37,964 nt of DNA from Candidatus Micrarchaeota archaeon (GTDB taxonomy: Archaea; Micrarchaeota; Micrarchaeia; Anstonellales; JAGGXE01): positions 1 through 37,964 of the forward strand of contig JAGGXE010000015.1 of assembly GCA_021163225.1 (NCBI GenBank). Reading direction: 5' to 3'. The notes beneath the pieces were generated by a model. The model was not told the origin of the DNA. It worked only from the letters and a program-made list of their open reading frames with translations, and ran no database searches. Shown here piece by piece: positions 5,108-37,964 of this stretch; position 1 is the stretch's first letter, and every line of letters starts with the position of its first letter. The position numbers were made by a program, and so were the translations under genes.

Positions 5108-5692
5108 ATGGCCTCACGTAAACGTGTAAGGATCAAACCTGTTTACAAAATCGAGAACATTGTGGCAAGTGGTGACCTTGACCTCGACCTTGACCTTTAT
5201 GTGCTCGCCTACAAACTCAGGGATATCGAATACGAACCGGAACAGTTCCCTGGTGCCATACTGAAACTTAAACAACCTAAAGCATCGCTGCTCCTCTTCA
5301 AAAACGGTAAGGTTATATGTACGGGTACCAAAACCGAGAAACTGATATCAAAGGCGTTGAGGGAAACGTATAAGATGGTTTCTAAATATTCAAAAGGACC
5401 TGTTAAAAAGGTGTACAGACCGAAGTTTACCGTGGAAAACATAGTGGCCTCCGGGTCCCTTGGTGTAAAACTGGACCTTTACAAACTGGCCATCAAATTC
5501 AACGAAATCGAATACGAGCCGGAACAGTTCCCTGGTGCCATACTGAAACTTAAACAACCTAAGGCATCGCTGCTCCTCTTCAAAAACGGTAAGGTTATAT
5601 GTACGGGTACCAAAACCGAGAAAGATATAAAGAAGGCTCTCAGAGTCACTGCAAAGATGTTGGAACCTTATGCCAAACCGCTTGACGAATGA
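5108..5692 (+). CDS. tbp: TATA-box-binding protein
   Basis: 194 residues, the usual archaeal size, with the two TBP half-repeats (about 12-92 and 106-186). Both halves carry ENIVASG, EPEQFPG and LLLFKNGK, which supply the DNA-contacting Asn and the kinking Phe residues. It recruits TFB and RNA polymerase to promoters. The two halves share an identical block of about 38 residues, encoded by a 117-bp direct repeat with two mismatches. TBP halves are normally far more diverged. A hexamer run at 5174-5197 encodes Asp-Leu four times. The stop overlaps the ATG of the next membrane gene by four bases, so tbp appears to lead the long surface-protein operon. Confidence 0.96.
   Translation: MASRKRVRIKPVYKIENIVASGDLDLDLDLYVLAYKLRDIEYEPEQFPGAILKLKQPKASLLLFKNGKVICTGTKTEKLISKALRETYKMVSKYSKGPVKKVYRPKFTVENIVASGSLGVKLDLYKLAIKFNEIEYEPEQFPGAILKLKQPKASLLLFKNGKVICTGTKTEKDIKKALRVTAKMLEPYAKPLDE
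5225..5341 (+). repeat. Internal direct repeat of tbp, copy 1
   Basis: 117 bases matching 5507-5623 with only two differences (A5236/G5518 and A5281/G5563), both silent third positions. It covers the stirrup and following strands of the N-terminal TBP half. Confidence 0.97.
5507..5623 (+). repeat. Internal direct repeat of tbp, copy 2
   Basis: Second copy, offset by 282 bases, covering the same structural part of the C-terminal TBP half. Flanking sequence on both sides diverges normally, which marks the edges of a likely conversion tract. Confidence 0.97.
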
Positions 5693-6978
5693 AGGTGGGC
5701 GGGTTGGAAAGGGTCGTTCGATATTTAGTGTTCATACTTGCCCTTTCATTCACTGTCATACATGCCGGATTCTTCGATTTTCTGAACTTCGAAGATGCAC
5801 TTGTCCCAACGGTTTCCCTGGGTTTGATCGGAGCGGTAATATCGTCGGTATTGATAGCGGTTGCGTATATGCTCGGGTCCGCTCTGAACATGCCCAACCT
5901 GACAGGATGGGCCAAGGAACAATCGGGAACTCTTGTTACAGGTGCTGTGATACTGGTAGTTGTGGTCATGATAATACTTTCATTGGGCCCGATAGCACGA
6001 CTCATAACAGGTAACGAGTCGATTACCACGTTTTTTGATTACCGCGATGCTGCGTTAGACACGATAGATAACATGATGAGTTATGTAAAAGGTAGGGTGC
6101 CTCCGCTCGTTGAAGGATACTACATATTATCAAAATACACTACGTTCTCAAGGTCTACAACGTACTCTGCATTGAAGTACATAGTGTACTTCACCTCCAA
6201 AGCTCCTAACGCAGGTTTATCGCCTCTCCAGATGACCATCTCAAACGCGATCAATTGGCTGATGCGTAGCATGGTTTGGTTGGCCTCTATCAAAGCCGTT
6301 ATCAAAGCAATATTCTCTCTCGGTCTCCTTCTGTTGATTACGGGTATAACGTTGAGGTTTATACCGTTCACCGTCAAACTTGGTAACACGTTGATCGCGT
6401 TCATGTTGGGTATGATACTGATGTTCCCTATGAGTATATTGATAGGCGGTAAGGTGTGGGAGGCGGCGCAGCCGCCTCCCACACATCTGAACATACCTGA
6501 CCCGGGCACACCGCCTCTGTTCTCAGTGGTATGCAGTCCTGTCATAGGAACCTTCTTCGGAACGACCGAATACGGATGGTGGCTCGTCATCTGCACACCT
6601 GTATGCACAGGGTTATGTGCGGCCAGCGGCCCGGCATTCTTTTCGTGTTTCTGGGATTGTTGGAGGCCTGGCGTGGACGACATCGTAGAGGGTGGTTTCT
6701 GTTTCGAAATGGTCGAAACATGGTACTACTACATACTCATCACATGGCAACTCACATATTCGGCAATACTGTCTTCATGGGGGAACCTGTCTCAGGCACA
6801 GGTCGACCAGATCACTGAGACCGTTTATCATGACGGCTTCTATCCTGCAGTGTACACGTTCATAACTATAGCGCTGATAACCTTCTACAGTATCATCCTA
6901 ACGATAGGTGCGATACGGTCGATATCGATAGCGTTGGGCGGTGAGGTGTACTTCTACGGTCTGGTCAAGATCATCTGA
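5689..6978 (+). CDS. A1: multi-pass exported membrane protein, VirB6-like topology
   Basis: 429 residues, first of six tandem related proteins. Signal peptide 1-26 (ends VIHA). TM1 about 41-63 and TM2 about 82-105 are joined by the loop YMLGSALNMPNLTGWAKEQS. An outer segment (106-190) contains PNAG (173-176). TM3 about 195-223 and TM4 about 233-258 are joined by TLRFIPFTVKLG. A second outer loop (260-390) holds about nine cysteines around two W-rich stretches. TM5 about 393-415 is followed by the tail ALGGEVYFYGLVKII. Topology outside-5TM-inside is inferred. The ATG overlaps the tbp stop by four bases with no Shine-Dalgarno sequence, suggesting translational coupling. A 14-bp perfect palindrome lies at 6454-6484. 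No known family is certain. VirB6/TrbL-like is the best guess. Confidence 0.8.
   Translation: MKVGGLERVVRYLVFILALSFTVIHAGFFDFLNFEDALVPTVSLGLIGAVISSVLIAVAYMLGSALNMPNLTGWAKEQSGTLVTGAVILVVVVMIILSLGPIARLITGNESITTFFDYRDAALDTIDNMMSYVKGRVPPLVEGYYILSKYTTFSRSTTYSALKYIVYFTSKAPNAGLSPLQMTISNAINWLMRSMVWLASIKAVIKAIFSLGLLLLITGITLRFIPFTVKLGNTLIAFMLGMILMFPMSILIGGKVWEAAQPPPTHLNIPDPGTPPLFSVVCSPVIGTFFGTTEYGWWLVICTPVCTGLCAASGPAFFSCFWDCWRPGVDDIVEGGFCFEMVETWYYYILITWQLTYSAILSSWGNLSQAQVDQITETVYHDGFYPAVYTFITIALITFYSIILTIGAIRSISIALGGEVYFYGLVKII
6454..6484. repeat. Perfect GC-rich palindrome inside A1
   Basis: Arms GTGTGGGAGGCGGC (6454-6467) and GCCGCCTCCCACAC (6471-6484) pair over 14 bp around a GCA loop. It is in frame in A1, right after TM4 at the start of the cysteine-bearing outer loop. 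Confidence 0.95.
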
Positions 6979-6995
6979 AGAAGATAGGGCGGGAT

Positions 6996-7982
6996 GTGTT
7001 GAAGATGCAACCGATAGAGCACAGGTACGAAAACGGTATCGATGAACACGGGGTAATACGCAATGTTGCGGTTCTGCTAGTATTACTTGTTTCGATAACC
7101 CATGCAGAAAGCATATGCAGGATAGCCCATATGACTTGGGTGGTTACGGCGCTCTTCATAGCAGGTGGCGCGGTGATAGTTGCATACATGATAGGTAGGG
7201 GAACGAACAACCCAAAACTTCTGTACTGGAGCAAAAGCGAGGTGGGGACAATCGTAACAACAGTGATATTGGTAGGTGTAATACTGGGTACGTTTTTCGT
7301 TCTCTGCAGACCTGACATACTACCCGTAGCAGGGGAAGGGTTTTATGATGCAGTGCACGGATACCTCGACGGGTTAAGGACGGATGCGATGGAAACCGCA
7401 GAAACACTCGTACTCCAAGGGTTCAACGACCAGTTCGAAGCCACCGCCTACTGGTTCGTAGGATATCCGATACTCGGTGGTGCCGGAGCATCACATACCG
7501 CATACAGATTGGCTCTGAACGCAGAACGTCAATCACTGTTCAACTATGTAATGATCGCATTGACATCTCTGAACATCCAACTCTTACTCATGGATTTCCT
7601 CGTCAAGGTAACCTTAGAATACCTGTTACCGATAGGGATAATAGTACGTCTCATCCCGCCGGCGAAGGATGCGGGCAACTTTCTGATAGCGTTCGCGCTC
7701 GGTGTTGTACTCGTGTATCCGTCAGCGTACTACCTGTTCATGAAAGTGGATGAAAGGATGGCCGGTGGAGACGGATTTCCGATACCGCCGAATGTGATTA
7801 ACGGATTCATCAAACCGATAAACATACCCGATGATGTAGGTGTGGCATGGGTCGACCCGCAACCCGAGATAGACAAAACCGCCAAATACCTTTACTACGG
7901 GATATTCATGCCCAACTTCGTGATAGTTTTAACTTCAACGTTCGTTGTATCGCTGTACTCGGCTATGAGAGGTGCGATGTAG
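6996..7982 (+). CDS. A2: multi-pass exported membrane protein of the same family
   Basis: 328 residues from the GTG at 6996 (TTG 6999 and ATG 7005 are alternatives, and GGGCGGGA just upstream is a weak ribosome site). A hydrophobic signal segment (about 23-37, ending THA) is followed by TM1 with AYMIGRGTNNPKLLYWSKSE and TM2. After an outer loop come TM3, the loop IIVRLIPPAKDAGNFLIAF, TM4 ending VLVYPSAYYLF, a short outer loop and TM5. It is the shortest member: the second outer loop has no cysteines and the protein stops straight after TM5, without the conserved Gly-Gly-Glu-Val tail. It lies 17 bases after A1 and abuts A3 (TAG-ATG). Confidence 0.78.
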   Translation: MLKMQPIEHRYENGIDEHGVIRNVAVLLVLLVSITHAESICRIAHMTWVVTALFIAGGAVIVAYMIGRGTNNPKLLYWSKSEVGTIVTTVILVGVILGTFFVLCRPDILPVAGEGFYDAVHGYLDGLRTDAMETAETLVLQGFNDQFEATAYWFVGYPILGGAGASHTAYRLALNAERQSLFNYVMIALTSLNIQLLLMDFLVKVTLEYLLPIGIIVRLIPPAKDAGNFLIAFALGVVLVYPSAYYLFMKVDERMAGGDGFPIPPNVINGFIKPINIPDDVGVAWVDPQPEIDKTAKYLYYGIFMPNFVIVLTSTFVVSLYSAMRGAM

Positions 7983-10691
7983 ATGAATAAACAGACAACG
8001 ATGGCATTGGTGTTCATCTTCATAACGGTTAACTTGCTCCATGCAGAGGTACGTATCGATCAAACGAATATCACAACAACTGTTGAACAGGCAACCTTAC
8101 CGACGGCACCAATCTATTACCCGTGGCTGGTACATTGGCGCATTATTGCCATCATACTGATGTTCATCTCACTGATAATCCTCATCGCAGTCAGATGGTT
8201 GTCGAAGATAGCAAACCTCCCCCAGGTCACGGCATGGGCAGATGTCGAGATCGGTCAGGTATTCGTATCCGCTCTGATCCTGGTCTTCGTGATAACAGTG
8301 CTCGGATTCTTGGATTGGTTGATGTTACAGTTTTCGGAGTACATCATCGATGTAACCGGCGGTACGGAATCGCCTTATGCGCATCTGTGCGATTCGATAA
8401 ACACCACCTGCGGACTGCAACTCTCGGTTGAGTACGTGCGCGAACTGGAAGATTTCGGTGAACGTGCCGTCAAGGATATAATGAAGAGTAACAAGGTGAT
8501 AGGGGAGGCGGCAACCACAAGTCGCGGTGTAACTTCCAACACGATACTCCTCGGGTTCCTCGGGAGTTCTTACATGCCCAACGCGGGCAAAACCGTACTG
8601 ATGGAGAGGAACAGTAAACTCGTAAGATACTATAATATGGTGCTGGGGGGACTCGGTGCACAGGAATTCTTCCTGGACAAACTCATATACATCATCGCAC
8701 CGTTTTCGATCATACTCGGCATCATACTGAGGTCGTTCTTTGTCACAAGACGGGTAGGCGGAACGTTGATAGCGTTCGGAAGCGTGCTGTTGGGTGTGGT
8801 ACCGCTTCTCTACATGTTCGCATGGTACACGTACGCGAACGCGGCCTATGGCGGGTTGGAAGGAGTGACACTGCAAAAAGCGAACGTTTCATGTCCTGAG
8901 GAATGTCTGCTGACACCGCCGAAGTACGTCGTCAAAACCAACGAGTCCGTCTACAACGTTCTCAACGATGTCGAACTGAACGATACGCTCGAAACAATAG
9001 AGAACGAAGGGGAGGAATCGGTGGAAGAGATAATAAACTGCAGTTCTGCATGCGAAGGGTGTAGTTACGAATGTCGTGTTCTGCCGATGCAACCGGCACA
9101 GTGTAACTGTAACGAGACGGCGTGCGCAAACTGTCCTATGGAATGCAAGATCTTCAGAAACAGAACCGATTGTGAGACAGGTTGCAATTGTCCTGACTTC
9201 TGCAAAGCAGATTTCAGCGAGTTTCTCAATCCTGAAAACAACTGTTCAACATGCGAAGGTTGTCCCACACATTGCAGGTACTGGTACAGGGACCCTTGGG
9301 GAAATGTGAGACCACCATCTGAGATGTGTAACATTACTGCATGTCAGAATTGCGAATGTAAGGTCTATCTTCCCGATAAGAACAGTATAGATTGCGATTA
9401 CGCATGCAGGGATTGTCCGGAACATTGCAGGGTCATCTACGCGGGCGGGTCAACGGAAGACCTGTTACCTCCAGACTGTAATTCTTCGGGTTGTCAGATA
9501 TGTCCGGACTACTGTAAGGCAACGTATTCGGCGGGCGAAGGATGTGCAGAACCGTTACCGCCTATGGAAAGTGCACCATGGTATATAGACTGGTGTTACG
9601 AATGTCCCGCATCGTGCAAGATGACGGCACTGTTTGACGAGGATAACTCAGCCAAACCTAATCTGTGCACGATGTCACCGTTCTCGGAGTACTGTGGAAG
9701 TTGCAGTGATGAGATCAACGAGATACCGCCGATCTGCGAACCTTACGACCCAGCGCCCACTTCAGCAGGTAACTGCCGTGCCTGTCCCGAAGAATACAGG
9801 GTGCTGTTGCGCGCACCGGACGGCGAAGTTCTGCGCCCGAACACGTTCCTGAGGCCGGGGGAATGTGGGTCCGACAAGTGTCCGGAATCCTGTTATTCGG
9901 TCGTGGACGTGGTTGTAAACGAGATGTGTCCGCCGTACAACTCTTCCGCATCATCGGGTTGCGAAGCGTGTCCGTACGAGTGCAGGTTATCCTATCCTGG
10001 TCGCGGATTGTCTTGTCCTGATGCGTGTGACGAGTGCGACAGATCATGCATGCTCAACCTCTCTACCGTTCATGTGAAGATATGTATGGAGTACAACGAA
10101 TCCGTTCCTCCGGAGAACTGCGCCGGATGTCCCATGGCTTGCAGGATAAACAATTCGGTGACTGTGTGCGACATGTTAAACACAGGGAACTGTTCCGATG
10201 CAGCGTGTCCTTCGGAATGTAAGATCACCGTTAACGCATCGCATTACCTCCAGGAAACCGAGAACCTCGGGTGTTTCGGATGTCCGTTGTACTGTCGTCT
10301 CGCCTCCGGACCATTACCTGGATGCCCTGCAACGTGTTACGTATCATCCCTGCTCCCCTGCCCGGAATACTGCAAATTCGAACCGCCGAAGAAACCCTGT
10401 GACGTATGCCTTGACTGTCACCCCGATTGCCTCAACAAACCTGCGTTCAGAACGGATTGCGGAGAGGTGTGCGGAGGAACCAACGAGTACCTGGGCATCA
10501 GTATGAGCGATCTGATAAGTTCAGGGTTCGGTGCACAAGGTAGAAAGGATACAAAGACGTTGGGTCTGCTGATAATACCTGCTCTCGTTCTGCCCGTCAT
10601 CGTCATAATAGTTGTGTTATCGTTTACACAAAAACTATCGTATACGTTGGGTGGTGACATTGAGATACCTGGAATCGGTAAATTCTTATAA
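7983..10691 (+). CDS. A3: family member with giant cysteine-rich ectodomain
   Basis: 902 residues. Signal peptide 1-21 (LLHA). TM1/TM2 are joined by WLSKIANLPQVTAWADVEIG. Outer loop 1 contains PNAG (about 199-202). TM3/TM4 are joined by IILRSFFVTRRVGGTLIAF. The second outer loop is expanded to about 540 residues (300-840) with roughly 70 cysteines in about 15-17 copies of a module of the form C-x2-C-P-x2-C-K/R, often preceded by C-x3-C, plus many N-x-S/T sequons. TM5 and the tail TLGGDIEIPGIGKFL close the protein. The modules should form disulfides or bind metal outside the cell, giving a stiff stalk or adhesive domain. The exact fold is unknown. Confidence 0.82.
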   Translation: MNKQTTMALVFIFITVNLLHAEVRIDQTNITTTVEQATLPTAPIYYPWLVHWRIIAIILMFISLIILIAVRWLSKIANLPQVTAWADVEIGQVFVSALILVFVITVLGFLDWLMLQFSEYIIDVTGGTESPYAHLCDSINTTCGLQLSVEYVRELEDFGERAVKDIMKSNKVIGEAATTSRGVTSNTILLGFLGSSYMPNAGKTVLMERNSKLVRYYNMVLGGLGAQEFFLDKLIYIIAPFSIILGIILRSFFVTRRVGGTLIAFGSVLLGVVPLLYMFAWYTYANAAYGGLEGVTLQKANVSCPEECLLTPPKYVVKTNESVYNVLNDVELNDTLETIENEGEESVEEIINCSSACEGCSYECRVLPMQPAQCNCNETACANCPMECKIFRNRTDCETGCNCPDFCKADFSEFLNPENNCSTCEGCPTHCRYWYRDPWGNVRPPSEMCNITACQNCECKVYLPDKNSIDCDYACRDCPEHCRVIYAGGSTEDLLPPDCNSSGCQICPDYCKATYSAGEGCAEPLPPMESAPWYIDWCYECPASCKMTALFDEDNSAKPNLCTMSPFSEYCGSCSDEINEIPPICEPYDPAPTSAGNCRACPEEYRVLLRAPDGEVLRPNTFLRPGECGSDKCPESCYSVVDVVVNEMCPPYNSSASSGCEACPYECRLSYPGRGLSCPDACDECDRSCMLNLSTVHVKICMEYNESVPPENCAGCPMACRINNSVTVCDMLNTGNCSDAACPSECKITVNASHYLQETENLGCFGCPLYCRLASGPLPGCPATCYVSSLLPCPEYCKFEPPKKPCDVCLDCHPDCLNKPAFRTDCGEVCGGTNEYLGISMSDLISSGFGAQGRKDTKTLGLLIIPALVLPVIVIIVVLSFTQKLSYTLGGDIEIPGIGKFL

Positions 10692-10692
10692 G

Positions 10693-11778
10693 ATGACAAA
10701 GGTTGCCTTAACCTGTCTGCTACTCATCATAATGTTAGTGCAAGATGTACGTGCTACCGAACTTCCGGAAATCGAGAACTACACGGGCATCCCCTTCCAT
10801 GAAGGTAGTGCAGAAGAGTTTGTCAAAGCAGCGGTGAGACCATGGATACTGCCGTCGCTCATAGCGTTGATCATAGCAGCAATCCTGCTCACAATCTTTA
10901 CAATCGCCGCTTACATAACTGGTTACAGACCCTGGTTAGCGAACGCGAAAATAGAATGGTACCAATACGCCGCCACGGTAATCCTTCTTGTGTTGATAAT
11001 CTTCATAGTGAAATCCGCGAACATAATAGGTGTTGTGATGGCGGGCGAGATGGGGTACGATGTAACCGGAAGCGAAAGCAGGGAACTGTGGAAGATAGCG
11101 CTCGGTAGAACTTCCTCGGAAATAATAAGGATGTACGGACTGTTAAACGATACCTTGAGCGTATCACACTATGTAGGGTACGAAGGGTCGAAAGGTGCCT
11201 CGTGCAATTTCCTGTCCGTAGGGTTTTCGCTCTCCTTATGTTCGGCGATGAACTCTCTACAAATGGCGACAGGTACGCTGAGTTCTACTGTTTACACCAA
11301 CCTGTTGAGCGTTTACAGTATACTGCATATCATAGTCCTGGGCGGAACGGTGTTCATGAGTGTGTTGATGCCCATAGGGTTGTTCCTGAGATGTTTTCAG
11401 ATAACGCGAAGGTTCGGTGGTGTGCTCGTAGTGGTTGCATTGGCATTCTACACCGTCTATCCGTTAAGTGTGCTCGCGGCGTATGCGGTAGCGGACAATG
11501 CAGACATACCCAACTATGTATCGTTGGATGACGTTGTTAAAGATGATTCCGGAGACCTGATAGAATGTAACCCTCTCGACCCGGAACAGGCCCACAACGT
11601 AACCATGACGTTCGCCGATAACGTAATGGATAAAACCGATGAGGTCGTAGAATACGTGATGTTCCGCGGGATCATCACACAGGTGTTTGCATTGACTATT
11701 ACCTTGGCAATAGTAAGATGGGGTCTCAGCGCAATCGGTGCGGTCGTTAACATATTCACGTTGACACGGTTGATATAG
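10693..11778 (+). CDS. A4: multi-pass exported membrane protein of the same family
   Basis: 361 residues from the ATG two bases after the A3 stop. An upstream in-frame codon exists inside A3, but the signal peptide (MTKVALTCLLLIIMLVQ, cut near VRA) fixes this start. TM1/TM2 are linked by AYITGYRPWLANAKIEWYQY. Outer loop 1 has two cysteines. TM3/TM4 are linked by GLFLRCFQITRRFGGVLVVV, with VYPLSVLAAY ending TM4. Outer loop 2 is short and acidic with one cysteine. TM5 is followed by a diverged tail, SAIGAVVNIFTLTRLI. It abuts A5 (TAG-ATG). The function is inferred only from the array. Confidence 0.8.
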   Translation: MTKVALTCLLLIIMLVQDVRATELPEIENYTGIPFHEGSAEEFVKAAVRPWILPSLIALIIAAILLTIFTIAAYITGYRPWLANAKIEWYQYAATVILLVLIIFIVKSANIIGVVMAGEMGYDVTGSESRELWKIALGRTSSEIIRMYGLLNDTLSVSHYVGYEGSKGASCNFLSVGFSLSLCSAMNSLQMATGTLSSTVYTNLLSVYSILHIIVLGGTVFMSVLMPIGLFLRCFQITRRFGGVLVVVALAFYTVYPLSVLAAYAVADNADIPNYVSLDDVVKDDSGDLIECNPLDPEQAHNVTMTFADNVMDKTDEVVEYVMFRGIITQVFALTITLAIVRWGLSAIGAVVNIFTLTRLI

Positions 11779-12963
11779 ATGGTACTCGAAGAGAAGACAG
11801 TATTGGTGTATGCGTTCCTCGCGCTTGCCGTCGTCACGGGCGCGGCTAACGCCGCGCCCTGGGACGACATAGCCGACAGAAGGGGTAACATCGACCGTCT
11901 GACGTGTGACGTGCTCGGGTTTAACAACGATTGGGTTATACTGTCCGTCATCGCGTTAGGTATAGCGGCAGGTATAATAACTGTAATATACATGGTAAGC
12001 AAACTCATCGGTTCTGCGCAAGGTGTGGCGTTCTGTCGTGCCGAGATAGGTCAACTCGTGTTCAGTGCTATCATAATAATAGCCACTTTCACAGTCGTGG
12101 ACACATTCATATGCAGCGGTTTTCTAACAGGGGCGGTACTGGGTTTAGATTTTTGCGACAATCCGTTAGACTGCACACAAGTGTACGCAAAAACGTCGAT
12201 CCTGTACTCGCATTTTCTCACCCAGATCTACCGTTACAACCAAGGTGTGTTGGAGGTAAGAGCTTCGCAGAACCGATGGGACCCATATTTTGCTTTCGTC
12301 TTCTTTGGAGGAGGGATCGGGAAATATTTCACTCCGAATGCGGGCGATTTTGGGTTCTCAGGCGTGTACTCTTCAGGAATGATGCTGGCTCTCGGTTACC
12401 TGTTCAACTCCTACTTGATATGGTACGTGCTATTGTTCGGTATCTATGCATTCCCGTTCCTGTTTCCGATCGGAATCGTGTTAAGATGTATACCTGCACT
12501 CAGACATATAGGAGGTGTGTTCCTGGCATTGTCCATAGTATTCCTTGTGATCTATCCGTTCGCCTTCTCCATAGGTGAATCAACCGTGGGATGCGGCGTG
12601 TATAAATGCATATCATACTGTGCTGATTGGCCCCCGCGAAACGTTACTGAGATGTACAGTACAATGTACGGAAAGGAGGGTTCTGAAGGATGGTACCCGT
12701 GGACGGTTCCGGATTACGACCCCGGTGAAGAAACCGATAGAATTGCAGGTATGGAAGGACCTGAGAAATACAGCCTACCCATTCTCGTAGACCTAACTCC
12801 TGAGGGAGGGAAAGGTAATGTAGCGGGTATACATGTATGCACATTCTTAAAGGCAGTGTTCATACCGATCGTTGTATGGATCGTGATAATAGTGGCCGTC
12901 AGAGAGTTATCCAGATTACTCGGGCAGGAAGTAGATATCAGCAGATTGGGTGAAATGATATGA
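11779..12963 (+). CDS. A5: multi-pass exported membrane protein of the same family
   Basis: 394 residues. Signal peptide about 1-25 (ends ANA). TM1/TM2 are joined by IYMVSKLIGSAQGVAFCRAE. Outer loop 1 includes TPNAG (about 186-190), also present in A1 and A3. TM3/TM4 are joined by GIVLRCIPALRHIGGVFLAL and end VIYPFAF. Outer loop 2 has a small cysteine cluster (GCGVYKCISYC). TM5 is followed by the best example of the family tail, LLGQEVDISRLGEMI. A 9-bp GC palindrome lies in the signal-peptide codons (11838-11859). The stop overlaps the A6 start by four bases (ATGA). Confidence 0.8.
   Translation: MVLEEKTVLVYAFLALAVVTGAANAAPWDDIADRRGNIDRLTCDVLGFNNDWVILSVIALGIAAGIITVIYMVSKLIGSAQGVAFCRAEIGQLVFSAIIIIATFTVVDTFICSGFLTGAVLGLDFCDNPLDCTQVYAKTSILYSHFLTQIYRYNQGVLEVRASQNRWDPYFAFVFFGGGIGKYFTPNAGDFGFSGVYSSGMMLALGYLFNSYLIWYVLLFGIYAFPFLFPIGIVLRCIPALRHIGGVFLALSIVFLVIYPFAFSIGESTVGCGVYKCISYCADWPPRNVTEMYSTMYGKEGSEGWYPWTVPDYDPGEETDRIAGMEGPEKYSLPILVDLTPEGGKGNVAGIHVCTFLKAVFIPIVVWIVIIVAVRELSRLLGQEVDISRLGEMI
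11838..11859. repeat. Perfect GC-rich palindrome in A5 signal-peptide codons
   Basis: Arms GGGCGCGGC and GCCGCGCCC pair over 9 bp around TAAC. It overlaps the codons of the predicted signal-peptidase site about 60 bases into the gene. Confidence 0.9.
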
Positions 12964-14144
12964 TAAAAGATGTTGTGAATGGATGGTGTAGAGATACCAA
13001 ATCGATGTTGTGCATAATCGCGTTTGTAATCCTTGGGTCACTCCTATTTGCCGGATGCATAAACGTACCGCATACACTTCCGGAAGGGTACGAAAGCGAA
13101 TATATCGAATATATCGAAAAGGTAAAGGTGATGAATCAGACAACCCTTGCAGGCGGGACAGAAGCGCCGGGTGGTGTTTCGTGGCTCGTGTACGCTATAA
13201 CCGCTGTGTTTCTCATGGGTACGGCGGCTATCGTACTGTACATGTTAGGGGCAGGATTGAACATCGAACCGCTCAAAAGGTATGCGACCAGCGAACTGTT
13301 GCAGACGGTAGCATCAGCGATATTGATCGCGTTCATTGTTGCTTTACTCTACGGGTTGTACGTCTTCATCATAGATTCGTTCATGGGCGGACCGGAGGCA
13401 ATGGTGTTGTGCGGGGCACAGACTAACAGGATGACCGTGAAGGATCCGATCAAGTTTGCAGAATGTAAGACACAGGAAAAACTTGACCGGCTGAATGAGA
13501 TGTGGGACACGGTCTACCGTGCCAATGAAGGCATGGAAAGGTTAACATCTACGTGTATCATGTTGCTGGGGATAAATGTGTACTGCTTCGACTGGTCACC
13601 GGGACTGAGAAAACAGGTGGGTATGGCGCATACGTTGGCAGACCGTATCACAACGCTCGAAGTAATCCTGCACATGGAGTACGGTCTGCTTCAATACGTG
13701 TTTGCTAACATGTTGGTATGGTTCCTTCCGTTAGGGCTTGTGCTGCGCGTTCTGCCGCCGACGCGCGGTGCAGGCGGTATGCTGATCGCGTTAGCCATAG
13801 GGTTCTATTTCGTCTACCCGACATTGATATTCGTGATGGACCCATCTTACGCGCGGCCGGAACTGAACGCACCGCTGACGTTTGACGAGGGTGATATGAC
13901 CGAATGTTATCAGGGATTCAGAGGAGCGGTCGCGCTTGCAACCAATACGTTCCTGATAGACCAGGGCGGGTTGAGCATGGTCAGTTACGAGACCGTTGCA
14001 AACAGGTTGACATATCTGACCATGGAGGCGATATACATACCGTTCGTGGCGTTTGTCGTAACTCTGCTGTTCGTCAAAACGTTGTCCGCGCTGTTCGGTG
14101 CAGAACCGTCGCACATGATGAGATTGGTTACCAAACTAGGGTGA
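12960..14144 (+). CDS. A6: family member with lipoprotein-type signal
   Basis: 394 residues. The N-terminus differs from its siblings: a lipobox LLFAGC (Cys33) ends the hydrophobic signal, suggesting a lipid-anchored mature N-terminus. TM1/TM2 are joined by YMLGAGLNIEPLKRYATSEL. Outer loop 1 has cysteines. TM3/TM4 are joined by GLVLRVLPPTRGAGGMLIAL, with YFVYPTLIFV ending TM4. The second outer loop is short. TM5 is followed by LSALFGAEPSHMMRLVTKLG, a diverged form of the family tail. The ATG overlaps the A5 stop. A GGGTGAT at its own 3' end serves as ribosome site for the next gene. Confidence 0.8.
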   Translation: MIKDVVNGWCRDTKSMLCIIAFVILGSLLFAGCINVPHTLPEGYESEYIEYIEKVKVMNQTTLAGGTEAPGGVSWLVYAITAVFLMGTAAIVLYMLGAGLNIEPLKRYATSELLQTVASAILIAFIVALLYGLYVFIIDSFMGGPEAMVLCGAQTNRMTVKDPIKFAECKTQEKLDRLNEMWDTVYRANEGMERLTSTCIMLLGINVYCFDWSPGLRKQVGMAHTLADRITTLEVILHMEYGLLQYVFANMLVWFLPLGLVLRVLPPTRGAGGMLIALAIGFYFVYPTLIFVMDPSYARPELNAPLTFDEGDMTECYQGFRGAVALATNTFLIDQGGLSMVSYETVANRLTYLTMEAIYIPFVAFVVTLLFVKTLSALFGAEPSHMMRLVTKLG

Positions 14145-14150
14145 TAACCT

Positions 14151-17100
14151 ATGGACAAGAGAAAGCTCGTTGTAACGGTTACATTTGTTTTCCTGTTGAT
14201 GCTCAGCGGTTGCGTTACTATCGGCCAAACTACCTACGAATCGAACACTAGCACGATGGAGGAGAGGAGTAGATGCATCAACAACTGCATCGCCATGGTA
14301 TGCGGTGAGGCTGAATACTCACGGAAACCGGAATTTTCTCCGTGCGAGATGGTGTTCAACCAAACAAACAACGAAACGATAACACCTGATGATTTCAGCA
14401 TGGAAAGGACTGCAATCAACCTGTACAATGCAAAGTGCAGTTTCGAACGTATGGATGAAAAACTTGCCAGAAAAATGAAGATGTCCCAGGGGAACCTGTG
14501 GATCAATACATTCAGGTTCGGGATAGGTGAAAGTTTCTCGGATTACGAAGAATCGAGGTTGTATTTTCCGATAACCGATAAATTCTGTATGCTGAACCCG
14601 AAAGGAACAAAAGACAGATACATGAACTATCTGAACACCTCGGGAATAGGCGGGCATTGTGTGTACAACGACACAGCGGAAGGTTGGGTGTGCATAGACC
14701 CCACGGGTGAAACTGTCGGAGATGTGTACACAGTGCCGAGAGGAAGGGTTGACGCACCGGTCATAAACCTCAGCGCTAAATTGAATTGCGAACATGCCTG
14801 CGATGTTGTATGGGCATCCGAACTCGGAATTTGCACAACTCCGGAACATCATCCTGCGTTCCTCGATGAAAACGCTTCCTACAAAATGAGCAACGTAACC
14901 TTCTACGGATACACCCATTGTAAAAATCCGGAAGAGGGGGCAGGTGGGTACGGTGATAAATGCGTCAACTGTGTGGATGCGGGCATCAGCGGTCTTCCCA
15001 CATGCACCGCACCGTCGGTCGGTTGCGGATGTATGACGCCTTTCAAGGATGCAGGGTGTTACAACGAAACCAACTATTCACAGATGGTCGAAACCGCACA
15101 ATTGAAAACGGTTGATTGGAGATGGTACGCTGAACAGTTGTACAACCAGTACAAGCACGAAATCGCAACCGGTTACGGCGGTGTTACAACACCTGAACCT
15201 TCGACATCCGAATCCTACTCACTGTCCGGATTCATCGTGGACCCTGACGACATAAATATCGATGATTTTGACAGCAGTTGTCTGCGTAATGAGTTCTATA
15301 ATCGATGTGAAATATACGCGATTGAGAACGAACTCGCCGGTTCAACGGACGAGGCAAGACATTGGTGCGAAGGGTTTGCGGACGAACATTGGGATAACTA
15401 TACGGACTGTCTGAAGTACACATATCTGACGTACTTGAACAATACAATACCTTATTGGGAAGATGTGATCTTACATAACTTCTGCGACCTGCCGGACAGT
15501 TGTACAGATGCCGGATTAGACCTCAATGATGTTTCTGAATACATATATCGAGGAAGCTTTGACGATTGGGTAGACGAAAACGGAGTACACCTTGAACACG
15601 ACCCCGATGGTCATCACCACTATTCCGATGAAGAGTTGTACTGTATCTACGAAGTGTGCAGCACGTATTTCGGAGGAACCAACGATGTATGCAACGGTCT
15701 CATACCTGAGATGTCGGATTTCCCGGGTGAATCAGTGGAATGCCAGAGGTGTTATGAAGAATGTGTTAATAACATAGATGATTGCAGAGGTTGGGCGCGC
15801 GAAAATGTAATGTGCGTTGATGAGCGTGTGCTTTTGGAAAATGCACTAGGATATGCCATAGATGATTTCGATAGCCATCGTTGCGATTACAACGACACGT
15901 TCTACAGATGTATGAAACATGTGATGGACGCGGTCGTTCACGGCGAAGAAACCGTTACCCTCCATAATCCTTATACAGGGATGGAGTTCGAATGTCAGAG
16001 CAGTGCTGAATGCATGTCCGGACTGTGCAGTAAGGATAAATACCATGCAGTCCGATGCGTGAACATGACAAGCCCGGGTCACGTTGGTGAGATAGAATGC
16101 GGACTCACCGGGTCCTACAGGTTCAGGCCCGGTTACCGTGACCACCAGAACATAAGCACGGAAGTGATATGGAATGTGGGATGGTACGTTGGTAAATGGG
16201 TGGTTGATACAGATTGCGATTCAAGATGGAAAAAGGAGACAAAAGAAGTTCCTGTGTTCGGTGAGGTGGCGGACGACGGGTCGCTGGTAGTGTTCGCATC
16301 TCCAGAGGTGTTCGATGAGTTGACCTTTGTCAAAGAATGTAACGTACCGGCCGGAAGTTACGAGGTATTGGAAAACCTAACAATATCTGACTTAACCGAG
16401 ATATTGGAAAGTAACGGGTATGAAGTGGGCGGCAGTGATGATTTCCCACTCATCATATACCGAGGTTTGGGCGGCCAGGATGACCGCTATTCCGATGTCC
16501 TGCCGACCGTTGCAGATATCACAAAGGACGGAATAAATTTCTGTATCGGTGCTCTTGAAACCGCATATGCTACACACAAATGGACATGGGACGATATAAT
16601 ATGGCGGGATGACCCGAGATGGAACCCTGGGCTGAAATGTGTTGTTATCGCAACACATGCTCTGAAACTGACAGATACGGGAATCTGCGGGAACGCTTCC
16701 AGAGTAGAATACAGGGATTACGGATGGTGCGAACCGTGCACATACGAAACGATGGCTGTCCAGAAGGTCAGTACCATCGAACCCTATTGTCCGGCAGGAA
16801 GCATTGACGAGTACGGTAACAAAAAAACCTTCTGCGTCTTCAAACAGGGTGACAGATGCGATGAGGATGTCCTGGGGTCGTCCGTTGAAGGATGCGGTGA
16901 CAACGACGGATCAGATGCAATGTGTACTGATTGCAGATATGCACCGAAAGAGGATTACGGATGCTGGAGACATAGAGATGAAAAATGGCCGAACATCTAC
17001 CCTGGCGTCACATACCTTTACAATCAGATTCAGTACTACCAGAAGAACAACATCATCCCTGTTCTGGATTTGAGATATTTACCTGACAGTGCGCTCACAA

Positions 17101-19160
17101 GAAACGTGCCCTGTGCAAGAAGACCTCGTCGTAGAATAAGTGATTGGGAGTATTACGATGGTTACGATGAATCAAACTGTAACGAAGACATACCTGGCGC
17201 ATACATAGATGGCAATAAACTGTATGTTCCGTCGTTCAAAGGGTCTGACCTGTACGAACCGTTGACCACAGGAGTAACGATAGACATTGTAGATTCATTG
17301 GGCAAAGCAAGAGTGCTTAAGGAAGGATGCGACAGTTGTCTCGTTGCCCTTTATGTACCGTCTACGAACGATAGCACCTATGAAGATGAGTTGGAGTGGT
17401 TGGAAGATCAGTTCAGCATGTATCCGGGTGCGCCTTATTACATGGTCAACGAAACAGAACTCGGATGGGTGGACCTGTTCGCCTACTCGTTCACACCTAA
17501 CTACCTGCCTCCTGCATGCAAATCTGACGGTTCGCAGTACTGGGATTGCACAAACACCGAATCGATAGACAGCCCGATAGAATTCAGCAGGGAACTGTTG
17601 AGAAGGTATCATAAACCGAGCCTGATTTACGGTCTTAACGTTCGGGGGAACGTAGAAAGCGACCTAATTGCAACCGTAACGTTTGAAATGGGACATGATG
17701 CTGTTGCAGATGAAGATCTTGATCACGACAGATGGGATGAGTACGGATATCATCGATTTAGAGATGAGGTGTGGTTAAGAAATTCTTCAACTGCTCCTTA
17801 TCACATCATTCCTTCCATAAGAAAAGGACATCAATATCACGGTAAATCAGAGGGTTGTAGTTCAGGTTTGGATACAGAGTCTATAACATGGGTTGATCTG
17901 TTTGCCACGATAAACTTTACACCTGTTATAGAAGAGGGAGGAAGGATCAACTCTATAAAATTGAAGAAAGTGCGTGGAGAGGATATAATAGGTTCACAGG
18001 AGAACGATGACGGAAATAAGTTTGGTAAGTTCTGGCATGTAGTCTCTGAATCAGGAGCAGACACAGGCATACCCCCAGTCGGAGAAGTCGGAGGAAGTTG
18101 CGGGGGGTCACATATTGGAAAGATATGTGAGGGGAGCGGACATACCACGTGTTGGTGTAGCACCGGAGATGTAGAAAACAGAAGTATTCACTTCAACGAA
18201 GGCGATAGATGGGTAACGCTGAAATTCGTTCTCGGCGCCGGAGAGGGATGGGATGATGAGAACAGTGTAAACACCTGTGACGAATGGACGGCCACCGAAG
18301 AGGCTAACAACGCTCATGGGTTGATAGTTGTGGAGATAAATTATACACTAGGAAGTGGAGAAGGTGATAACTGTTCTGCTATCTACAGATACCTGTTCAC
18401 CCATCAGAGGAAGTTCACAGATGTTGGGATAATAGGAGTGATATACTTAGATTGGCATTCTTCAGAACCTACTGCACTGACGATAGACACAGACAGAGGT
18501 GTTGTAAGAAACAACAACTTCTGCGCTCTGCAGAAATGGAGCAGGAAACTGTTAGGGTTTGAAAAGGTGAATACATACATAAAGGTCTATGCAGATGAAA
18601 GGGAGGATGCGTGCAGATGTCAGCCATGCACAAACGAGATGAAACGGTTGGGTCTGTGCAACCCGATATGCGCGGACGGACAACCGTGCACCGGATACGA
18701 TGAATCCGAAGGGGAAGACGTAGCATGTCCGATGATGTGCGCGCGTGCAGACAAGTGCAGACTGTGTAACGATTCGAGTAGTTTGGGCGGAACGATGTTC
18801 AACTGCACAAAGTACTATTCGGACGGTTCAACAGAACCCGGACCTGTCGGAACAGTAGAAGACCTGATGACCGGGATGTACCCGGATGTGGTGAGCGAAC
18901 TGGGATGTTGCATCCTTGAAAAAGTCGGGAGTAACCCATTCCACGGACCCGTATCGGTCAGAGAAAACGATACCGTGAAGATTACCTATGTGAAGGTGTC
19001 AGGGCTTAAATCGCGTAACGAACAGATAATATATCCTTACGACGGTTCACCGTACGTGGACTGCAAAAACAGACCCGAAGATGTTGATATCTGTCCGGGC
19101 ATAGGTATACCTATACATGTTGAGGAAGGTGATCTGGTATGCACGATAGAATCATCTTGA
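14151..19160 (+). CDS. Giant cysteine-rich secreted lipoprotein (1669 residues), function unknown
   Basis: The signal ends in a lipobox, LMLSGC (Cys21), so it is probably a lipid-anchored extracellular protein. There is no later TM helix. Cysteines are spread over the whole length, with a dense block near 1480-1560 (CRCQPC, CNPIC, CPMMC, CRLC). A His-rich stretch (HDPDGHHHY) lies near 483. WVDLFA-x(4)-TP segments occur near 1105 and 1246, and SREL and SRKL helices are each followed by a strand, which hints at an alpha/beta domain, possibly glycosidase-like. I cannot support that assignment. Sequons are frequent. GGGTGAT lies just before the ATG, and the end overlaps the next gene by 22 bases. 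It is presumably an outer component of the A1-A6 machine. Confidence 0.8.
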   Translation: MDKRKLVVTVTFVFLLMLSGCVTIGQTTYESNTSTMEERSRCINNCIAMVCGEAEYSRKPEFSPCEMVFNQTNNETITPDDFSMERTAINLYNAKCSFERMDEKLARKMKMSQGNLWINTFRFGIGESFSDYEESRLYFPITDKFCMLNPKGTKDRYMNYLNTSGIGGHCVYNDTAEGWVCIDPTGETVGDVYTVPRGRVDAPVINLSAKLNCEHACDVVWASELGICTTPEHHPAFLDENASYKMSNVTFYGYTHCKNPEEGAGGYGDKCVNCVDAGISGLPTCTAPSVGCGCMTPFKDAGCYNETNYSQMVETAQLKTVDWRWYAEQLYNQYKHEIATGYGGVTTPEPSTSESYSLSGFIVDPDDINIDDFDSSCLRNEFYNRCEIYAIENELAGSTDEARHWCEGFADEHWDNYTDCLKYTYLTYLNNTIPYWEDVILHNFCDLPDSCTDAGLDLNDVSEYIYRGSFDDWVDENGVHLEHDPDGHHHYSDEELYCIYEVCSTYFGGTNDVCNGLIPEMSDFPGESVECQRCYEECVNNIDDCRGWARENVMCVDERVLLENALGYAIDDFDSHRCDYNDTFYRCMKHVMDAVVHGEETVTLHNPYTGMEFECQSSAECMSGLCSKDKYHAVRCVNMTSPGHVGEIECGLTGSYRFRPGYRDHQNISTEVIWNVGWYVGKWVVDTDCDSRWKKETKEVPVFGEVADDGSLVVFASPEVFDELTFVKECNVPAGSYEVLENLTISDLTEILESNGYEVGGSDDFPLIIYRGLGGQDDRYSDVLPTVADITKDGINFCIGALETAYATHKWTWDDIIWRDDPRWNPGLKCVVIATHALKLTDTGICGNASRVEYRDYGWCEPCTYETMAVQKVSTIEPYCPAGSIDEYGNKKTFCVFKQGDRCDEDVLGSSVEGCGDNDGSDAMCTDCRYAPKEDYGCWRHRDEKWPNIYPGVTYLYNQIQYYQKNNIIPVLDLRYLPDSALTRNVPCARRPRRRISDWEYYDGYDESNCNEDIPGAYIDGNKLYVPSFKGSDLYEPLTTGVTIDIVDSLGKARVLKEGCDSCLVALYVPSTNDSTYEDELEWLEDQFSMYPGAPYYMVNETELGWVDLFAYSFTPNYLPPACKSDGSQYWDCTNTESIDSPIEFSRELLRRYHKPSLIYGLNVRGNVESDLIATVTFEMGHDAVADEDLDHDRWDEYGYHRFRDEVWLRNSSTAPYHIIPSIRKGHQYHGKSEGCSSGLDTESITWVDLFATINFTPVIEEGGRINSIKLKKVRGEDIIGSQENDDGNKFGKFWHVVSESGADTGIPPVGEVGGSCGGSHIGKICEGSGHTTCWCSTGDVENRSIHFNEGDRWVTLKFVLGAGEGWDDENSVNTCDEWTATEEANNAHGLIVVEINYTLGSGEGDNCSAIYRYLFTHQRKFTDVGIIGVIYLDWHSSEPTALTIDTDRGVVRNNNFCALQKWSRKLLGFEKVNTYIKVYADEREDACRCQPCTNEMKRLGLCNPICADGQPCTGYDESEGEDVACPMMCARADKCRLCNDSSSLGGTMFNCTKYYSDGSTEPGPVGTVEDLMTGMYPDVVSELGCCILEKVGSNPFHGPVSVRENDTVKITYVKVSGLKSRNEQIIYPYDGSPYVDCKNRPEDVDICPGIGIPIHVEEGDLVCTIESS

Positions 19161-22100
19161 GAAATCGGAGAACCATCGGAGTAATCGTTTTCATGCTGCT
19201 GGTCATTGCGGCGGGCATGCCGCTTGCGGCATGCCCGCCTCTCACAGAATACAGTAGCGGCATAATACTTGCAACCGATATCGGAGACGGCTCGTATAAG
19301 ATCGGGTTCTATGAAGAAGTGTTCAACTCTTCGCTCGGCGGATACCAACGCACACCCGTAGAGAACGCACTACTTTACATGTACGCACCTGATTCTCACG
19401 GTAACATAACGATGTGTTACGCTGTCACCGGAACGAACGGAACTGTTTACATTAACATTCCGGAGACGTTCCACTCGAACTGCACGACCCTCACGACTGT
19501 TTACTGTTACAACGTCTGTCCGGACGACCCAGATTTTGCAGAAAAGATCTTCGAATGCACCGGTATCAATATAACAGAACTGAGTCGTCCTGTCAGGTCA
19601 TGCGGCACCGGCGGTGGTACGCTGTCCTGTCCCTACTCGGTAAACAGAACGATATACGCACCGTCCAAGGAGGTAAGGTACTGTAAACCTGTAGCCGCAT
19701 CTCTGGAAGAATGGTTGTGTCTACCGGTATTTCTGATTATCGGGTTGTTGGCCGGTGCACTGTACCTCTCGGGTGTCAACCCGTTCAACATGTTCGCCGT
19801 GCGGGGCGGGCCGAGGTTCAAAACAGGCACGTACAGAATGCGTAAGAGAAGGGGTGCTTCTTTCTCCGTATCTTCGCTCATGTACGCAGGACTCACAGCC
19901 AAAGAAACCGCTAAAGGGATAAAAGAGGCAGGCGGCCTCCGTAAATACCTTGAATACGAATGGAAAGGTGTAAAGGATTTTCTCAAATCCGCGTATGTTG
20001 AACCTTTCAGCAGAACGAAGGAATTGGCTAAAGAGTACAACATCGGCCTGAAGAAGTTGGGACGTAAGACGTTCGGCAGACGAACCGTCCGGCCGTCAGA
20101 AGGGGCGGAGGAAGAAAGCAGCCAACCGCAGGAACAAAGTTTTGCAGTCACCCCCGGCACAAAAGGGTCTGGTCCGGCCGTTGTAGCAGGAGCCTATAAA
20201 GGTACGGTTCATCGGGCCGTGAAAACGTTCGCTAAAAAGACAGGGAAAGACTGGTTGGCCGTTACTTTAGGTATCGCGTACGCAGTGTTCGGAGCACCTT
20301 TCCTGAATACGATAGCACCGGGCATGTCAACAGTTGTACTGAGAAAGATAGACAAAAGTAATGCGAGAAAACTTGCAGATGCGCTTATTACAGGTAGATT
20401 CAGAGGCAAAAAGATAGATTGGGAGAATACCACTGCTGAGAACGGGAACAGGGTCGCCGTCACGTTGGTGTTCAGGGATGAGGAGGGCAATGTGATAGGT
20501 AAACTTAGGGTAGGTTGGGACGATATCCAAACCGTTGATGCACGGTTTAGTGAACTGACGAACGCCATGCCCGGGATATTACCCGACGCCATCGGCAATG
20601 TAGCATGGTCGAAACGGTTAGCAGACGTAATGGCAAAAGCAAAGGAGAGCGGTAATATACCGAGATGGTTAAAAGACGTTGTAGGCATGGCGCGTGAAGG
20701 GTCCGATAGAGATGAGATCATCAAAGCAATCATGAAGGTTATACCTAACAGAACGGCAGCACGGGATCTGGCTGACGAAATCATCAAACTTGCAGACAGA
20801 ACGGATGCGGAGGTCATAAACCAGTTGTACAGCTGGTCCGTTTTGCATCAGAACGAAGCGACAAACGTAATGAAACAGGTGATGGGCGTCTTCGGCGGAT
20901 CGATAATGTTGGCGTTGTACCCTGCAACCGTAGGACCGAACATAGAACTACCTGACTGGTATATGAAGATATCTGAAGAAATCGAGAATAAGAAGAAGGA
21001 ACTTGAAGAACTGGAAAAGTCGGGCGCGTCACAGGAGGAGATAAACAAGAAAAAGGCCGAGATCGTGGAACTCATCCGATTGTTCGAACAGAGATACGAC
21101 AAAGAGAAGGAGAAGCTTAGGAAAGTGATCGCAGACCTGGCAATAACAGAGGTGAAGACAATAGGTTACATGAAGAAGCTCGATAAAGCCTTAAAAGCGC
21201 AACTCGAACTGGCAGCGTTGGAGAAGGCGCGTATGGAGATGGAGGGTAAGGTGACAACGGTACATATTACATATACGCAGGACGGCGAGACCAGGACATC
21301 CGAAATAGACGTTGTGGACCTTGCACATTCGACGGGCGCGCAGGCAGCAAGGTTGAAACTGTCGCTCCTGAGCCAAGGGTACTGGATATATTCCAACGGA
21401 GGGATGGACGGGCTCCAGTTTTCCGGTTTCATAGATAACACATTGTCAAAGGTTACCGTTCCATCGCTTGCAGACGAATCCGATATCTACAACCCGGTGC
21501 GTGTCACCGACTGGGCGTTGGACATGAAATCGGCATCGGTCAGGTTCGGTGCCGCGCTGGGCATGATGGAACCGTTCAACAAACTGACTTCTCAAGAGAG
21601 AAATGTCATAGCAGAGGACGAAAAAACCTTCGCTGAGTATAAAAAGAGGGTCATACAGATAGGCAACTGGGTCAACTCGTTCGATGACAGGTTCGTCTCC
21701 GGTCTGCCGGAACATCCAGAACCCGAGGTCAGTGAAGCCGAACGATCGCTGAACGATGCGGTAAGAAGGTATTCGGAAGCGCGTGAAAGAGGGAACAACG
21801 AAGAAGCGGCTATCGCATTGACGGAGATAAGGGATGCACAGAACCAGATCCAAAAAGGGATGGGAGAAGACGAGAATTACCTTGAACAGAGCACGGAGTA
21901 CGTCAATGAACTTCGGAAGATGACGGACAACGTTAACGAAGAGACGAACTTCCTCGTTTCCGGAATGGCAGCCACGGTTTCCTTCTTCAGAGGGTACACG
22001 GTCGAACCCTACGATGCCGAATCGAAAGACTTGTATCAGAAGATGGAGGAAGACTATTGGAAGGCAAGCGGACAGTTTGATATGTTGTACAACTCATATC

Positions 22101-37114: not shown

Positions 37115-37438
37115 ATGAACAGGGTCGAATCGGCTGTCGTTTCAGGGATTGCGCTCAGTCTTCTGATAACTTCTCTTTCAGACACCGTGCTTCTCGGTGC
37201 GATCCTAGGTTTTATATCGATTGTGATACTGACAAAACTCGCCGGGTTCAAAATCCACGAGAGTGTAACGGTCGGCGGGATCGCCATGCTTCTGTCATTC
37301 ATATTCATCACATTGGGATATGCCGATTCCCTGGGCACCACGGGCGGGTTGCTGGTCATGTTCACGGTCGTAGGGTACACGATGATAGGTGCGTTCGGAG
37401 GATGGTTGGGTTCAACGTTAGGAGGTGTTAGAGCATGA
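37115..37438 (+). CDS. Small four-TM membrane protein
   Basis: 107 residues, almost wholly hydrophobic, with about four TM helices (roughly 8-24, 26-45, 52-70 and 79-100) and very few charges. The stop overlaps the next ATG by four bases, so it belongs with the two following membrane genes. I do not recognise the family. A membrane scaffold of a secretion or pilus system is inference from the neighbours. Confidence 0.7.
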   Translation: MNRVESAVVSGIALSLLITSLSDTVLLGAILGFISIVILTKLAGFKIHESVTVGGIAMLLSFIFITLGYADSLGTTGGLLVMFTVVGYTMIGAFGGWLGSTLGGVRA

Positions 37439-37686
37439 CGTATATAGAAACGTTAATACTCGACATAAAGAACTCTCTGGCGAACATCGGTGCTGCGTTA
37501 TCGTTGATACTCATCATACTTGGCGGGATAGTGTACGGAATTTCCCAAGGCATGCCTGCGGAAACGAGAGGTAAATGGCAATCGATGGCAGTCGGCCTTA
37601 TCATAGGGGGAATCATAATGGCCGCGATAGTCGGGTCTGCAGAAGTGATAAGAAACATCGCCATGAAAGCCGCTACTGCGGAGTGA
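37435..37686 (+). CDS. Two-TM small protein resembling VirB2/TrbC pilins
   Basis: 83 residues. TM1 about 16-38 (ALSLILIILGGIVYGI), a short polar loop (SQGMPAETRGKWQS) and TM2 about 50-70 (GLIIGGIIMAAIVGSA). The Gly-rich helix pair, loop length and size fit the VirB2/TrbC class of type IV secretion pilins. There is no clear signal peptide, which those usually have, so the assignment is tentative. It is coupled to the genes on either side. Confidence 0.65.
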   Translation: MTYIETLILDIKNSLANIGAALSLILIILGGIVYGISQGMPAETRGKWQSMAVGLIIGGIIMAAIVGSAEVIRNIAMKAATAE

Positions 37687-37693
37687 TGCCAGG

Positions 37694-37964
37694 ATGGTAA
37701 ACCCAGGAGATTTCACTATTGCCGGAGCGGTTGCAGGGTTAACCATAACGTTGTCAGGCATAATAATAGGGTTAGGTATAGCGTTGGGAAGCAAAAAACT
37801 CCTGAACAGGGGTAAAGAAGAACTCATCCAGGGGATACTGAGCGCAGCGTTGGTCGGATTGTTCATGAGTCTGATAACGTCTACTGATACGGTCGCGTTA
37901 TCACTCCTTCCGCCGGTCGAAGGCGCAACAGGCTCTGTGTCATATCTGACGACGTTATTCTCGC
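37694..37964 (+). CDS. N-terminal part of a membrane protein similar to A1-A6 (runs off right edge)
   Basis: 90 codons are visible. TM1 (about 10-31) is followed by GSKKLLNRGKEELIQG and TM2 (about 47-63). This hairpin and its loop resemble the first hairpin of A6 (YMLGAGLNIEPLKRYATSEL) and A5 (CRAEIGQLVFSA): a Gly after TM1, a Leu-rich polar loop and an E-L/I-x-Q leading into a small-residue helix. Unlike A1-A6 it has no signal peptide. The relation is by eye and needs the rest of the gene. Confidence 0.6.
   Translation, partial: MVNPGDFTIAGAVAGLTITLSGIIIGLGIALGSKKLLNRGKEELIQGILSAALVGLFMSLITSTDTVALSLLPPVEGATGSVSYLTTLFS

Follow-up and report, generated by a model that had tools for sequence, protein, structure and literature searches.

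The rvhB6 paralogs of Rickettsiales are recognisable VirB6 homologs that lie within a full bacterial type IV secretion system (T4SS). Ehrlichia expresses four VirB6 paralogs, according to work cited in PMC12857230. In the solved structure of VirB6, five of the seven long helices are hydrophobic (alpha 1, 2 and 5–7); the bacterial protein is a homopentamer, thought to be the base for pilus growth (PMC9259494). Among archaea, the DNA-import systems Ced and Ted of Sulfolobales and Thermoproteales comprise CedA/TedA, CedB/TedB and CedA1/TedC (PMC9905601), and the SPEARE are giant proteins of Nanohaloarchaea with a VirB4/TraG-like ATPase (PMC10266531). Here we describe six tandem genes, A1–A6 (positions 5689–14144, plus strand), on contig JAGGXE010000015.1 (C15) of a Candidatus Micrarchaeota archaeon. 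The stretch analysed, 37,964 nucleotides and referred to below as the window, belongs to the chromosome of this 880-kb genome, of which selected stretches were read. We propose, with a probability of roughly 75%, that A1–A6 serve as the subunits of the inner-membrane channel in a Ced/Ted-like translocation machine of Micrarchaeota, derived from a T4SS, in which VirB6 has been expanded to six. This would probably be a previously undescribed machine for cell-to-cell transfer.

The Six-Gene Array

The array consists of six open reading frames (ORFs) with intergenic distances of −4 to +17 bp, and all six products are predicted to be VirB6-like. A1 (5689–6978) encodes 429 amino acids (aa) with a signal peptide and five transmembrane (TM) segments, A2 (6996–7982; 328 aa) is the minimal paralog, and A3 (7983–10691; 902 aa) carries a Cys-rich outside loop of 579 aa between TM4 and TM5. 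They are followed by A4 (10693–11778; 361 aa), A5 (11779–12963; 394 aa) and A6 (12960–14144; 394 aa), the last being a lipoprotein with the lipobox LLFAG|C. The frame of A4 is open from 10612, and its earliest ATG with a signal peptide is that at 10693.

These are homologous five-TM proteins with similarity far above chance. An iterated hidden Markov model (HMM) seeded by A5 recovers the other five at E < 1e-45, and all-against-all comparison by hhalign of position-specific alignments (positions 1, 2, 4, 5 and 6) gives E-values from 1e-36 to 1e-60. The first-pass annotation of this DNA had read the region as six tandem paralogs, each with a signal or lipobox start, five TM segments, an outside N terminus and an inside C terminus, and all of this is borne out. 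Hydropathy shows a signal peptide, or the lipobox in A6, and then, in most of the proteins, five TM segments; the loops 1–2 and 3–4 are basic and the outer loops acidic, as expected of an N-out/C-in layout, with which the helices of an AlphaFold2 (AF2) model of A2 agree. The loop motifs of that annotation are real as well and form the best-conserved columns of the family, although they are looser than it had them. Across 134 family sequences these columns are a W-A-K-x-E hairpin loop and P-x-G-x-x-L-R-x-F-x-x-T-R-x-x-G-G...P around TM3/TM4; E82, P212, R218, R224 and G227 (A2 numbering) are each present in at least 90% of the sequences, and P242 in 134 of 134. The G-G-E-V tail, described as present in most of the proteins, is clear only in A1, A3, A5 and A6.

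Pfam and NCBIfam gave no match above cut-off for A1–A6, and weak matches such as Sdh_cyt (0.0019) were rejected as reflecting membrane composition. Neither the PDB sequence search with the array profiles of A1 and A2 nor the first scan of genome contigs with one protein as the query returned a match.

Distribution and Gene Order

The array is not a local feature but an ancient and near-universal one of Micrarchaeota. The family is present in 178 of 196 sampled Micrarchaeota genomes (~90%), or 85 of 93 when good-quality genomes are counted; within the 196, families f16, f18 and f20 are without it. Related named records are Candidatus Micrarchaeota, including Fermentimicrarchaeum and Burarchaeum. 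Outside the phylum the sampling consisted of pattern scans and a plasmid search (tblastn with a standalone paralog as the query), the latter without a match, and in contrast to VirB6/TrbL the array family has so far been found only in Micrarchaeota. A spread to Iainarchaeota, suggested by metagenome-assembled genomes named 'Candidatus ainarchaeum' (loci L083 and L088), was rejected: the coordinates and scores of these matches equal those of the Micrarchaeota genomes G054 and G150, and therefore the name looks wrong.

Exactly six genes are found in 46 of the 49 arrays flagged as complete. Of the remaining three, two contain a gene that is split into two pieces, and the third is cut by a contig end. 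In the family tree, the nearest neighbor from another locus shares the array position in 293 of 294 cases (240 of 240 plus 53 of 54), and position mapping across distant families agrees in 46 of 54. The gene order is thus fixed by orthology, and anciently. Genomes of the taxonomic order to which the window belongs carry two arrays, type I (that of the window) and type II (here on contig C48, locus L009). Since each array position splits into two supported subclades, type I and type II, the whole six-gene set was evidently duplicated as a unit. Other families have one six-gene array and one standalone paralog; the standalone paralogs form one clade in the tree and align with the array positions at hhalign E-values of 1e-35 to 1e-47.

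The simplest reason for the invariant number and order would be that the six paralogs build a single assembly, each at a place of its own. Alternatively, the six might share no ring, each forming homo-oligomers of its own that act as a VirB6-like channel or pilus base for a different substrate or partner, and the array would then be a toolkit of parallel channels. The bacterial homopentamer points to self-assembly as the ancestral state, the standalone paralog presumably assembles with itself, and the outer inserts vary greatly between positions and between species, all of which suits such a toolkit. Parallel channels, however, should be gained and lost independently, and what is seen instead is a constant number and order, with the three deviating arrays accounted for, and duplication of the set as a whole. 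We therefore regard parallel channels as rather unlikely.

Linkage to Pilin and ATPase Genes

Two traits of type IV secretion accompany the family: a VirB4-type ATPase encoded with the channel gene, and a VirB2-like pilin. Seven loci of families f12 and f13 hold a conserved set in the order small two-TM secreted pilin-like protein, standalone paralog, C2 and ATPase, where C2 denotes a protein with two TM segments and a soluble part (distinct from c2 of the window, see below). The small proteins match TrbC/VIRB2 (best 4.1e-5; six of seven members) and T4SS_pilin (best 1.1e-5; five of seven), with those pilin candidates that were scored individually falling below the Pfam cut-offs. The ATPase beside the standalone paralog matches DUF87, its best Pfam match, and AAA_10, and by hhalign the ATPase set aligns with VirB4 at 7.5e-11 over 271 columns, as against merely 9e-4 for VirD4.

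The six-gene array itself is linked to the same kinds of genes. In families f12, f13 and f17 it is followed in one operon by two genes, X and Y, and by an ATPase of ~505 aa; X and Y are homologs of C2 (hhalign E 1e-27 to 1e-32 among the three), and the two ATPases scanned, next to the array in f12 and f17, exceed the cut-offs of AAA_10 and P-loop_TraG. Several six-gene arrays have VirB2-like genes on their upstream side. At locus L135 of genome G064, whose matches equal those of the Fermentimicrarchaeum record in coordinates and score, two pilin genes precede the array, which is followed by X, Y, the ATPase and further genes, and TrbC is matched among the pilins at 1e-4.

The right edge of the window carries the beginning of a comparable set. 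A VirB2-like pilin candidate (37435–37686, plus strand), an 83-aa two-TM hairpin, matches T4SS_pilin (PF18895) at 3.4e-4, under the family cut-off, and a pilin of other Micrarchaeota families at 5e-10 by phmmer. It is followed on the same strand by the start of a standalone VirB6-like gene, the 13th paralog (37694–37964), which is cut by the contig end and resumes on contig C19. The closing 127 bases of the window (37838–37964) recur exactly at the start of C19 (L038 1–127). There the same frame runs on, giving a protein of 320 aa, and C2 and an ATPase (AAA_10, DUF87) come next. De Bruijn assemblers leave exact overlaps of this kind where two contigs meet, and C15 and C19 therefore probably adjoin, with one VirB6-like gene across the break.

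Directly upstream of the pilin candidate lies a 107-aa multi-TM ORF (37115–37438) without a family match, which may be in the same operon. Elsewhere in this genome, contig C1 (L039 4105–10262) has a second module of a C2-like protein and a VirB4/HerA-type ATPase, together with a small protein, a coiled-coil/winged-helix protein and an 835-aa membrane protein, and with no VirB6 array alongside.

The Partner Proteins c1 and c2

In type I arrays A6 is followed by c1, a Cys-rich lipoprotein of 700–1700 aa depending on the array, and then by c2. In the window c1 (14151–19160, plus strand) is a giant secreted lipoprotein of 1669 aa, and c2 (19139–23080, plus strand; 1313 aa) has a signal peptide, ~160 aa outside, a TM segment at residues 193–211 and a basic, helical cytoplasmic part of ~1100 aa; a Pfam scan finds no domain in either. 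Cysteine is extremely abundant in two of these largely extracellular proteins, with 75 residues in the whole of A3 and 84 in c1, and both likely have disulfide-rich or metal-binding surface domains. Genes similar to c2 adjoin type II arrays as well, at locus L018 followed by a c1-like gene. In the product of the latter (L018 17539–19743; 735 aa), an SLT (lytic transglycosylase) domain scores higher than the Pfam cut-off; the domain is VirB1-like and odd in an archaeon without peptidoglycan. At L019 and L022, in two genera, two adjacent FtsZ-looking genes (motif GVGGGGCN) are found near the type II array. A further cluster beside some type II arrays, c3, looks like a class I aminoacyl-tRNA synthetase (FPYPNSPxHIGH) and was set aside as an unrelated neighbor.

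The linkage of the array to the giant lipoprotein c1, rich in Cys, and to the long, basic membrane protein c2 would also suit a surface or envelope scaffold, for instance an S-layer anchor or an adhesion platform, that descends from VirB6 and no longer translocates anything, as would the fact that in the taxonomic order of the window neither six-gene array directly adjoins ATPase or pilin genes. Yet in f12, f13 and f17 the array shares an operon with the ATPase, in several cases preceded by a pilin gene, and in all six proteins conservation is highest at the channel loop motif. A scaffold of this kind is accordingly improbable.

Predicted Fold and Comparison with VirB6

The first-pass annotation had likened the six proteins to VirB6/TrbL (PF04610). 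The likeness holds for the predicted fold and for the linkage to VirB2-like pilins and a VirB4/TraG-type ATPase, but not for the sequence: the profile comparison it proposed was negative, as a search of the genome with PF04610 gave no match. An AF2 model of A2 built from a deep family alignment (pLDDT 85.6, pTM 0.78) was compared by Foldseek with 350,542 PDB chains, and R388 VirB6 occupied ranks 1, 2, 3 and 5. The highest probabilities were 0.99 (8rtd_L), 0.92 (7o3v_G) and 0.72 (8rt9_F), and 7o3v_J stood at rank 5. These three entries contain TrwI, the R388 VirB6, and 7o3v and 8rt9 are described as VirB5–VirB6 stalk complexes; the matched chains were taken as TrwI from chain lengths and lettering. 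Because one complex fills the first three places among so many chains, a chance match is unlikely in spite of the modest E-value. The order of elements in the model, a hydrophobic hairpin, a soluble middle and three hydrophobic helices, is also that of VirB6. The modeling thus supports a VirB6-like predicted fold for the A1–A6 family.

Many of the hhalign alignments with VirB6/TrbL share one register at the P-x10-T-R loop, which is suggestive only. A poorer first model of A6 gave nothing significant by Foldseek, with a chain of the R388 entry 8rtd at rank 23, and a Foldseek search of a viral-structure library returned no match. The pilin was compared with the N-terminal hairpin of the family after the example of the relation between CedA1 and CedA (PMC9905601); the E-values (0.009–0.7) are not significant, and the register is correct in some of the alignments.

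Several results weigh against a VirB6-derived machine. Profiles of VirB6 (10 sequences), TrbL (8 sequences) and both joined gave hhalign E-values of 0.04–0.7, roughly as reversed or shuffled decoy sequences do, and the Foldseek matches of A2 have an E-value of just 0.06, with TM-scores of 0.39–0.45 and a root-mean-square deviation of 7.6. C2, X and Y do not align with VirB3, VirB4-N or VirB8, so that homologs of VirB3 and VirB8 were not recognised, with comparison profiles that held two sequences each. The ATPase matches HerA (DUF87) well too, the VirD4 coupling protein (PF02534) gives no match in the genome, and the separation of array from ATPase and pilin genes in this taxonomic order has been mentioned. 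Finally, the standalone-paralog profile matches two ABC transporters at ~1e-7 over a Ser/Leu/Val-rich stretch. The array profiles do not reproduce this match, which was rejected as compositional, and no unrelated transporter family, the outcome that the first-pass annotation had set against its own idea, matches convincingly. That A1–A6 are an unrelated archaeal membrane family with only the five-TM layout in common with VirB6, beside a HerA-type DNA pump ATPase by coincidence, would fit the decoy-level profile scores, a Foldseek E-value weak on its own and DUF87 as the best Pfam match of the ATPase, but is very improbable given that VirB6 supplies four of the five best PDB matches and that VirB2-like pilin genes adjoin the standalone paralog in f12/f13 and the window and recur upstream of several six-gene arrays.

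The Proposed Machine

In the T4SS-derived machine that we favor, the hexameric ATPase would help to extract VirB2-like pilins from the membrane, and the pilins would assemble on a platform of VirB6-like subunits in which the six paralogs hold unique positions, possibly as a pseudo-sixfold ring. Outside the cell, c1 and the long Cys-rich insert of A3 may make up a collar that reaches into, through or above the S-layer, and c2 may connect the platform to the cytoplasm. As no VirD4 was found, the working is probably Ced/Ted-like rather than that of classical conjugation. The cargo could be DNA, nucleotides or proteins, moved between the symbiont on one side and its archaeal host or other Micrarchaeota on the other; import of DNA, or its exchange with the host, is our best guess for cargo and direction. 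Both the ring of six and the role in host contact are inferred.

A stricter version, in which an obligate heterohexameric VirB6 ring of six different subunits in fixed positions is a dedicated host-contact channel of Micrarchaeota, is put forward only tentatively and seems to us doubtful as it stands. Such a ring can be likened to MCM2-7 and the proteasomal Rpt1-6 as compared with their homomeric ancestors. The envelope of the micrarchaeon Microcaldus has a wide barrel where nanotubes of the host dock (PMC11329633), and the heterohexamer could be this barrel. How Micrarchaeota, which are mostly host-dependent and tiny, exchange material with other cells is a question for which the array offers a concrete candidate. 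What would be new is a channel of six different subunits, invariant in number and order, and it raises the general question of how a homomeric secretion channel turns into a fixed set of six different subunits.

Comparison with Known Systems

The first-pass annotation knew of no described archaeal array of this kind. Our literature search, outside which most subscription papers and preprints fell, likewise found no paper describing the six-gene array; single-gene archaeal VirB6-like channels, CedA and TedA, are known (PMC9905601). The SPEARE, like the present system, are found in DPANN episymbionts and associate a giant surface protein with an ATPase of T4SS type. In them, however, giant protein and ATPase are a single fusion, and a VirB6 array is not described. 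The T4SS of Rickettsiales (rvhB6), likewise of host-dependent cells, includes several VirB6 paralogs in tandem that bear long non-membrane extensions, whereas the array described here is archaeal, is invariant in its six genes and their order throughout the phylum, and has no sequence match to VirB6.

With VirB6/TrbL (PF04610), as represented by TrwI of R388, the array proteins have in common the five hydrophobic helices, the N-outside/C-inside layout, the alpha-hairpin start and the best fold match in the PDB. VirB6, however, is a homopentamer of one protein, while here there are six fixed, distinct paralogs with large Cys-rich outer inserts. Ced and Ted share with the Micrarchaeota system the minimal set of a VirB2-like pilin, a VirB6-like channel and a VirB4/HerA-like ATPase, as well as a chromosomal, domesticated state, here with no VirD4 found. 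Compared by description, the difference is that Ced and Ted have one channel gene, whereas the Micrarchaeota system has six plus one, together with the giant proteins c1 and c2.

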